A DNA stretch of 43,452 bases from an uncultured Bacilli bacterium (GTDB lineage: Bacteria > Bacillota_I > Bacilli_A > RF39 > UBA660): positions 1-43,452 of the forward strand of contig CANQBF010000006.1 of NCBI GenBank assembly GCA_947588895.1, in the 5' to 3' direction. The first letter of the stretch is position 1, and every line of letters begins with the position of its first letter. Both the position numbers and the translations under genes were made by a program. The notes under the pieces were generated by a model. It was not told the origin of the DNA, did no database searches, and saw only the letters and a list, made by a program, of their open reading frames with translations. Shown one piece after another: positions 26,066-43,386 of this stretch.

Positions 26066-26431
26066 ATGAGTAAAATAGAAGACTTTAAAGAATTTATAAG
26101 AAATAAGCCTGAATTAGTTGAATATATTAAAAATAAAGAAATGACAATGCAGTCATTTTATGAAATATATGATGTTTATGGAAATAATGAAGAAGCATGG
26201 AAACCATATGAAAGAAGTATTTCTAATCCATCTAATAATATTATAAGTCCTAGTAAAATTACTGATATTATGAAAAATATTAATTTAGATGAAATTCAAA
26301 AACATATTAATACAGCTCAAAAAGCTTTAGGAGTAGTAGAAGATTTAACTACTAAAGGAACTGCTAATATTGAAAACGCCATTAAGGGACCCCTATCACC
26401 GAGACCTTTAAATAAATTCTTTGAGGATTAA
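26066..26431 (+). CDS. ylbD: YlbD-family protein
   Basis: A 121-residue cytoplasmic protein resembling B. subtilis YlbD (putative spore coat protein family). Shared features by eye: an N-terminal DFKEFIRNKPELVEYIKNK helix, SFYEIYDVYGNNEEAWKPY, and a C-terminal helical segment with MKNINLDEIQKHINTAQKAL. The adjacent gene is YlbE-like, the same order as in Bacillus, which strengthens the call. Its ribosome-binding site lies in the 3' arm of the parC terminator hairpin, so expression may need an internal promoter. Its role outside spore formation is unknown. Confidence 0.7.
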   Translation: MSKIEDFKEFIRNKPELVEYIKNKEMTMQSFYEIYDVYGNNEEAWKPYERSISNPSNNIISPSKITDIMKNINLDEIQKHINTAQKALGVVEDLTTKGTANIENAIKGPLSPRPLNKFFED

Positions 26432-26654: not shown

Positions 26655-26673
26655 TAACTCGACAAAATAAGAC

Positions 26674-26711
26674 AAAACATACCTCTTTACAAAAGGTATG
26701 TTTTATTATTT
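26674..26711 (+). terminator. Terminator of ylbD-ylbE
   Basis: A 10-bp stem AAAACATACC/GGTATGTTTT with an 11-base loop. The loop contains the -35 box of the next transcript. Confidence 0.7.
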
Positions 26712-26714
26712 AAT
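26686..26714 (+). promoter_or_regulatory. Promoter of the structured RNA gene
   Basis: TTTACA (26686-26691), a 17-base spacer, then TTTAAT (26709-26714). The predicted start near 26720 is four bases before the first paired base of the RNA. Confidence 0.55.
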
Positions 26715-26793
26715 AGAGAACTAAGGGCACTATGTTTGCGCCGTCATTCCAAATTTCAGGGGGTTTTGAATCTATTGAAAGGCGGTTGATAAA

Positions 26794-26886
26794 GTGAAGT
26801 CAAAAAACTTAATAAGAATTTTGATTATCATTATTTTTGTTTTATTGTACTTAATGTACTGTATAATTCAAAAGACGCATCCTTAG
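26794..26886 (+). CDS. Putative 30-residue hydrophobic peptide
   Basis: A GTG start preceded 8 bases upstream by AAAGGCGG opens MKSKNLIRI, then a run of Ile/Leu/Phe/Val, ending IIQKTHP. This is one membrane span with basic N-terminus and charged C-terminus, the layout of small type I toxins (Fst, TxpA, Ldr kinds). It lies wholly inside the closed RNA described at 26720-26989. The A/T-rich DNA could give a hydrophobic frame by chance, so coding is uncertain. No sequence match to a named toxin is claimed. Confidence 0.4.
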   Translation: MKSKNLIRILIIIIFVLLYLMYCIIQKTHP

Positions 26887-26961
26887 TAGTAATATCAGGA
26901 TAGCGTCGACTATCAAAATAGACGGCGTGATTCATACGCGTCCCTATTTAAATTATAACTT

Positions 26962-26989
26962 AAATATTGCTAATAAACAATATTTTTTA
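26962..26989 (+). terminator. Terminator of the structured RNA
   Basis: AAATATTG (26962-26969) pairs with CAATATTT (26978-26985) over an 8-base loop, followed by TTTAT. The T-run is on the plus strand, so it serves the RNA rather than the convergent membrane-protein gene. Confidence 0.7.
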
Positions 26990-42966: not shown

Positions 42967-43386
42967 ATGAGAAAAGGAAGTCACGTACAATATGAAATAG
43001 AATATCATTTAGTATGGACAACAAAATATAGATATAGAGTATTAGAAGGTAGAATAGCGGAAAGATGTAGAGAAATAATAAGACAAAGTTGCAATAGCAT
43101 GGAAATAAATATAATGAAGGGGAGTATAGGAAGAGATCATGTACATATGTTGATATCAGCACCACCAAATATAAGTGTATCAAAGATATTGCAACAATTA
43201 AAAGGAAAAACGTCAAGAGTATTGTTAAGCGAATATAAAGAGTTAAAAAAGAGATATTGGGGACAACATTTGTGGGCCAGTGGATATTTTTGTAGAAGTG
43301 TAGGAGATGTAAGTAAAGAAATAATAAAAGAATATATAGAAAATCAAGCAGATGAATATGAAGAAAATTTCCGGATAGTACGGTGA
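42967..43386 (+). CDS. tnpA: IS200-family Y1 HUH transposase TnpA
   Basis: A 139-residue single-strand DNA transposase. The HUH metal-binding pair is in RDHVHMLIS, the nucleophilic Tyr is in SKEIIKEYIENQ, and the N-terminal YEIEYHLVWTTKYR and the WGQHLWASGYFCRSVG segment are typical. TGGAGGG precedes the ATG at 42967. It ends with TGA, unlike almost all host genes, and uses codons such as CGG that are rare around it, as expected for a mobile gene. No TnpB/IscB partner is present. Full length and apparently intact. Confidence 0.93.
   Translation: MRKGSHVQYEIEYHLVWTTKYRYRVLEGRIAERCREIIRQSCNSMEINIMKGSIGRDHVHMLISAPPNISVSKILQQLKGKTSRVLLSEYKELKKRYWGQHLWASGYFCRSVGDVSKEIIKEYIENQADEYEENFRIVR

Follow-up and report, generated by a model that had tools for sequence, protein, structure and literature searches.

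What is the structured transcription unit that fills an intergenic gap in the genome of an uncultured gut bacterium, and does it act as RNA alone or through something it encodes? We addressed this question in a 43,452-nucleotide (nt) stretch of DNA, here called the window, from an uncultured Bacilli bacterium of the RF39 group (GenBank assembly GCA_947588895.1, contig CANQBF010000006.1), in which a first-pass annotation had proposed a self-contained structured RNA gene between ylbE and a convergent gene. The element is probably a chromosomal copy of a type I toxin-antitoxin-like module that recurs in multiple copies in a genus of uncultured gut Bacilli. Judged by its sequence, its predicted transcript is an mRNA, not a non-coding RNA. 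We read it as a type I system on the combined evidence of a hydrophobic peptide, a predicted cis antisense RNA, a copy number that is high and varies between genomes, and the presence of empty sites and remnants. The parts of the element in the window are as follows.

26686–26714, plus strand: sense promoter TTTACA-17-TTTAAT (−35 at 26686–26691, 17-nt spacer, −10 at 26709–26714), conserved in aligned copies
26721–26988, plus strand: predicted toxin-type mRNA of about 268 nt, with promoter, terminator and a fold z of −4.1
26724–26745, plus strand: 5′ arm of the long-range closing helix P1, assessed by own versus swapped arm energies in 41 copies
26758–26763, plus strand: AGGGGG element in the 5′ untranslated region (UTR), its central GGG invariant in 15 aligned copies, with a G-run in 45 of 46
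26778–26785, plus strand: Shine-Dalgarno sequence AAAGGCGG; in relatives, AGGAGGTGA or AGGTGG takes this position
26794–26886, plus strand: open reading frame (ORF) for a hydrophobic peptide, 30 amino acids (aa) from a GTG start in the window copy
26866–26947, minus strand: predicted antisense RNA of about 80 nt, two hairpins and a U-run, backed by fold z and compensatory changes
26874–26907, unstranded: hairpin GACGCATCCT...AGGATAGCGTC; carrying the C-terminal codons (plus the stop codon in relatives) when read on the plus strand and forming the antisense intrinsic terminator, followed by TTTT, on the minus strand
26908–26920, unstranded: hypervariable single-stranded linker between the two hairpins of the antisense RNA, a candidate cognate-pairing address
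26921–26945, plus strand: 3′ arm of P1, whose minus strand is the 5′ hairpin of the antisense RNA
26952–26980, minus strand: antisense promoter TTGTTT-17-TATAAT, its position constant in almost every one of 47 copies
26964–26989, plus strand: sense terminator ATATTG-loop-CAATAT (stem 26964–26983) followed by a T-run, read directly and overlapping the antisense −35

The promoter, end-to-end helix, internal hairpin and terminator of the first-pass annotation were all found where it had put them by direct reading of the sequence, and its hint at type I toxin families pointed in the right direction. It had listed neither the small ORF (26794–26886) nor the antisense promoter (26952–26980), the Spo0A-box-like repeats (26658–26677) or the multi-copy status of the element. 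A generic promoter scan of the window did not list the sense promoter, so our promoter claims rest on conservation among copies; the predicted sense start lies at about 26721. Terminator hairpins are also present downstream of several other copies.

We searched the DNA of this genome and its relatives and found many copies, some in tandem at a period of about 336 bp; 63 copies were parsed across the genus. A hairpin-derived pattern matched 20 of the 38 genomes of the genus (the reversed pattern matched none), and a peptide profile matched 31 of the 38 at E ≤ 0.05, with at most 15 matches per genome, the weakest matches at this cut-off being individually insecure. Copy number ranges from 0 to 15 between close relatives. 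In the window, the gap between ylbE and the convergent DUF6512 gene is 346 bp and is filled by the element; in several relatives lacking it, the same gap is 25–43 bp and holds a terminator hairpin only. A remnant (L115, G000:C4:33300-34000), intergenic on another contig of the genome and adjoining a convergent gene, keeps the promoter region and helix ends with the ORF core deleted (MKATT*), as expected of a module decaying through toxin loss. In some divergent members the arm sequences differ yet again and the GACG hairpin is missing. Beyond the genus, matches to the exact pattern stayed at control level and the peptide profile gave weak, scattered matches in 5 of about 170 genomes, so we treat the element as absent there. 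The phages and plasmids searched gave zero matches to the element, as did viral contigs searched with one DNA pattern.

The encoded peptide is under selection. Most of the 63 parsed copies have a Shine-Dalgarno sequence and an ORF of 33–39 codons with a KDA or KDV tail, a few others being shortened or interrupted by a contig end. The consensus in relatives is MKSK.LIR.LI.II..LL...KDA..., with MKSKNLIRILIIIIFVLLYIIYIIIQKDASLVVMQG as an example of a full-length peptide. The ratio of non-synonymous to synonymous changes (pN/pS) was 0.40 in the proposed frame versus 0.75 and 2.07 in the shifted frames, showing purifying selection. Length changes within the ORF stay in frame among relatives, and subfamilies that have diverged strongly in nucleotide sequence retain the hydrophobic peptide. 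At 33–39 aa with one continuous hydrophobic stretch, it fits the fewer than 60 aa and the transmembrane segment that characterize type I toxins. The AGGGGG element upstream is possibly a ribosome standby site. Many copies also have a hok/mok-like leader ORF after AGGGGG, a candidate we rejected: start and stop codons are too frequent here for this to prove anything.

We then evaluated the RNA fold. The 304-nt stretch folds at −71.3 kcal/mol versus −53.1 ± 4.4 for shuffles (z −4.1, 0/100). P1 comprises the pairs AGGG 26724–26727/CCCT 26942–26945, TATG 26731–26734/CATA 26933–26936 and GCGCCGTC 26738–26745/GACGGCGT 26921–26928, and its arms in the window pair at −26.8 kcal/mol versus −11.9 ± 3.2 for shuffled arms (1/2000). 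The arms are too diverged to align, which made RNAalifold on a MAFFT alignment overlook the outer portion of P1, and we therefore compared each copy's own arms with arms swapped between copies. Arm sequences differ by subfamily (AAGGGCACTATG/CATACGCGTCCC, GGAAGTGT/ACACTTCC, ACAGGAAG/CTTCCTGT) with pairing kept within each copy; across 41 copies, own arms averaged −30.4 kcal/mol and swapped arms −23.4 (z −10.5), and 0 of 20,000 permutations did as well, a count that is not a strict probability since the copies are related. The closing helix is real, and the compensatory substitutions that the first-pass annotation had named as its test are present in relatives.

The opposite strand carries a predicted gene of its own. 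Among the 47 copies with enough flank, nearly all have an inward-facing promoter at the 3′ end with TATAAT or TATACT, a −35 beginning TTG, a spacer of 17–18 nt in most, and a usual distance of 8–11 nt from the helix end; they average 9.1 of 12 consensus matches versus 8.0 in shuffles (shuffle means 7.8–8.3). The predicted antisense RNAs are 74–91 nt long with a mean fold z of −4.85 (51 copies; −2.2 for the window copy), and a GACG...CGTC hairpin followed by a U-run is found in all 51 antisense sequences. The internal hairpin of the first-pass annotation is present; it forms the predicted antisense terminator and also carries the last codons and stop codon. In the antisense structure of 18 copies, 93% of cells are paired and 17 are changed on both sides versus 6.8 when shuffled; none of 500 shuffles reaches the covariation score, and slid structures collapse. 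In the inner antisense stem, three copies have U.G at one position and two have G.U at another; the sense strand would have A.C mismatches there, which suggests structural selection on the antisense RNA itself. At the level of prediction, the element therefore has what marks a type I locus, an overlapping antisense gene with its own promoter and terminator; complementarity to the mRNA is perfect by position.

Between the two antisense hairpins, the linker varies from 10 to 17 nt among copies and is predicted to be unpaired at 0.78 in the sense and 0.68 in the antisense RNA, versus 0.36 and 0.38 overall. In all five subfamilies compared, no segment is as poorly conserved as the linker (identity 0.31–0.55, versus 0.63–0.98 for the neighbouring hairpin and 3′ arm), with the antisense promoter region nearly as variable in one of them (0.45 vs 0.43). 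Near-identical linker pairs occurred in 0 of 42 comparisons within a genome and 3 of 134 between genomes, a difference that is not significant. The linker may give each antisense RNA its own target.

Two further features lie upstream of the mRNA.

26658–26677, minus strand: two tandem Spo0A-box-like sites 10 bp apart, TTTTGTCTTA and TTTTGTCGAG (consensus TTTTGTCGAA)
26674–26704, unstranded: dyad AAAACATACC...GGTATGTTTT around the −35 box, a 16-pair terminator-like stem on the minus strand

The box pair sits at the same position upstream of the −35 in the window subfamily, and TGTCGAA is the core of the known Spo0A (0A) box (PMC3485338). Across 47 copies, we counted 52 TTTTGTCGAA-type sites at 8/10 or better versus 10.2 in shuffles (maximum 21); 32 copies have at least one such site and 27 have one at 9/10 or better. 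The boxes are often in tandem, in about 60% of copies, 10 bp apart, with an orientation that differs between subfamilies; promoters of the Spo0A regulon likewise have the TGTCGAA core, which here often occurs in tandem just upstream of the −35. Spo0A is encoded in this genome and in 35 of the 38 genomes of the genus; none of the 16 near-complete genomes lacks it. The C-terminal DNA-binding domain of this Spo0A closely matches the solved Spo0A domain, with a nearly identical NTTA(S/T)RVERAIRHAIE stretch, and RF39-type Bacilli are predicted to include sporulating species (PMC10868615). In the literature searched, Spo0A boxes were not found at the promoter of any type I toxin-antitoxin system. 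The arms of the −35 dyad vary in concert between copies, the sequence changing with symmetry kept; the dyad stands in place of the empty site's terminator hairpin, and another subfamily has ACTTTACAAT..ATTGTAAAGT instead. It may act as terminator, operator or both. In two relatives, one copy each (L058, L063; G007:C11, G001:C1) lies about 2 kb from spo0A.

These features suggest how the module may work. A sigma-A-type promoter, with Spo0A boxes ahead of it in most copies, would make the mRNA of about 268 nt, whose ends would close through P1 and which would encode a membrane peptide of about 35 aa, the putative toxin. The convergent promoter at the 3′ end would make the antisense RNA of about 80 nt over the last codons and 3′ UTR, ending at the hairpin at the end of the ORF. 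Pairing of the antisense RNA with its own mRNA would begin at the single-stranded, paralogue-specific linker and extend from there, opening the closing helix and leading to RNase III-type decay, a translation block or both, so that the peptide is probably kept silent. Because the boxes lie just upstream of the −35, we infer that Spo0A~P would bind there and raise sense transcription, the peptide appearing on entry to the Spo0A programme.

Several observations weigh against parts of this account. The 3′ arm does not appear to sequester the ribosome-binding site, for which the opening energy is 9.2 kcal/mol with the arm and 10.2 without it. The signal for local sequestration is weak: the opening energy is about 9 kcal/mol and does not depend on P1, and the local value lies slightly above that of shuffled 5′ UTRs (mean z 0.8, 31/46). 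With fold-back hiding of the site failing in silico, control by antisense pairing and RNA decay is to be expected. About one third of the copies have no Spo0A boxes and a different dyad spanning the −35, as seen in one subfamily group, so that regulation by Spo0A does not extend to every copy. Across the genome, 6 perfect boxes were counted versus 9 in the reversed control, which is no enrichment. Type I toxins of C. difficile and their homologues are described as having a lysine-rich C-terminus (PMC6563280), which this peptide does not have. The window copy is itself truncated, its 30-aa ORF beginning with GTG and a 1-nt deletion near 26869 shifting the last codons to KTHP with the hydrophobic core kept; it may be degenerate. 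As a frameshifted IbsC type I toxin reportedly stays toxic (PMC7192591), the window copy may still act; alternatively, it may share the decay of the internally deleted copy found on the other contig.

Could the element instead be a structured non-coding RNA, 6S-like or a regulatory small RNA, with an incidental ORF? The strong, conserved long-range fold, the unit's own promoter and terminator, and the lack of any Rfam match all agree with such an RNA, as does the short, GTG-started and frameshifted ORF of the window copy. The pN/pS value, low in the true frame only, the conserved Shine-Dalgarno sequence, the in-frame length changes and a hydrophobic peptide that outlasts strong divergence between subfamilies make it quite improbable. 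Of the structured RNA gene in the first-pass annotation, the self-contained transcription unit with a conserved, covarying fold was borne out by the relatives, but not the stand-alone non-coding RNA, since relatives encode a selected membrane peptide with a Shine-Dalgarno sequence. That a dispersed repeat, of the kind of a miniature inverted-repeat transposable element (MITE) or a repetitive extragenic palindrome, owes its fold and copy number to mobility and not to gene function is very improbable: the element is multi-copy, dispersed, compact, equipped with its own terminators and precisely placed between genes, but its peptide is under selection, it has two conserved opposed promoters, and paralogues differing mostly in one segment of 10–17 nt would be unexpected of a MITE.

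The Spo0A boxes, together with the presence of Spo0A, raise the further alternative of a Spo0A-controlled small membrane peptide with a non-toxic role in sporulation, its level tuned by the antisense RNA; sporulation employs other tiny membrane peptides. Tandem arrays, empty sites, a deletion remnant, the swing from 0 to 15 copies among close relatives and near-complete genomes with zero copies leave this unlikely, since turnover of this kind is typical of selfish or toxic modules and atypical of a core gene for sporulation. Export as an antimicrobial or cannibalism peptide at Spo0A onset, with the antisense RNA shielding the producer, would also suit a hydrophobic product, and Spo0A-linked peptide toxins are known in Bacillus subtilis (skf, sdp). 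We consider it improbable, as a single-transmembrane peptide with a cis antisense RNA better fits an intracellular type I toxin, and no transporter, modification or immunity gene was seen consistently beside the copies, for which no systematic search was made.

The type I toxin-antitoxin reading has precedents. Convergent Gram-positive systems overlapping at their 3′ ends (Bacillus subtilis TxpA/RatA and BsrG/SR4; C. difficile CD2517.1-RCd8 and relatives) share the small hydrophobic peptide mRNA and the convergent antisense RNA overlapping the toxin gene, and C. difficile type I toxins likewise lack homology to other type I toxins (PMC6563280). The element differs from these systems in having no recognisable sequence family, an antisense RNA of only about 80 nt, a hairpin serving both as antisense terminator and as ORF end, the presence of Spo0A boxes, and zero phage or plasmid matches. 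Ldr/Rdl and Ibs/Sib of E. coli are also sets of several similar chromosomal repeats in which every repeat combines a tiny peptide with an antisense RNA, and Sib acts through defined target-recognition domains (PMC4147584). The Ldr/Rdl antisense overlaps the 5′ UTR, whereas that of the element covers only the ORF end and 3′ UTR, with a variable single-stranded linker. In hok mRNA, too, the ends fold back and pair. The element resembles hok/sok and other fold-back mRNAs in the pairing of mRNA ends over about 200 nt, and differs in that its closed helix does not sequester the ribosome-binding site in silico, no 3′-processing model is supported and the antisense lies at the other end.

The surroundings of the element and its copies yielded further observations. 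The gene upstream of the window element is YlbE (Pfam PF14003, E 3.7e-6) and the convergent gene downstream is DUF6512 (E 7.8e-16). A YlbD coat-protein family gene at 26066–26431 (PF14071, E 2e-16) is consistent with sporulating ancestry, and an ORF at 42967–43386 presumably resembles an IS200/IS605-type transposase. In same-genus relatives, we noted a promoter-like motif with a poly-G spacer tract, TTGAC(T/A)CC-G7..10-TATTA-TATAAT (L041:1595-1621, L057:1632-1658, L070:1385-1411, L072:1381-1407), present about 20–38 times in each of several relatives (reversed control, 0) and absent from the window's own genome. Its tract length varies within a genome, which suggests a genome-wide set of phase-variable promoters. 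Most of these putative promoters precede paralogous genes for signal-anchored proteins (MKKIIIGVLVIIEIFSLYMMYQ..., MRIINKKYLLII...), often directly after a toxin-antitoxin-like copy; the proteins share an FA.Y.E...Y.EY.....P..GY.LN...S.C motif and are possibly variable surface proteins.

The first-pass annotation had recognised no known RNA family, in agreement with our Rfam scan of the element, which gave zero families at gathering score (6S and type I antitoxins included) and chance-like sub-threshold matches in a lax search. The peptide has no significant match among Pfam, NCBIfam or PHROGs models, and the family, absent from all four collections, is not described in the literature searched. 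The type I kind is already known; what is new is the family, its Spo0A boxes and its variable linker. A bolder proposal, possible but on balance doubtful, is that of a genus-wide, Spo0A-activated type I family in which the linker, as a diversifying RNA address, keeps paralogues orthogonal and each locus independently addictive, the whole set being released at commitment to sporulation. If true, these findings would extend the known type I toxin-antitoxin systems by a so far undescribed family from uncultured gut Bacilli. They would also connect type I modules with the master regulator of sporulation, for which the literature searched offered no example. Dozens of paralogous pairs with one fast-changing segment would then constitute a natural data set on how antisense cross-talk is avoided within one cell.
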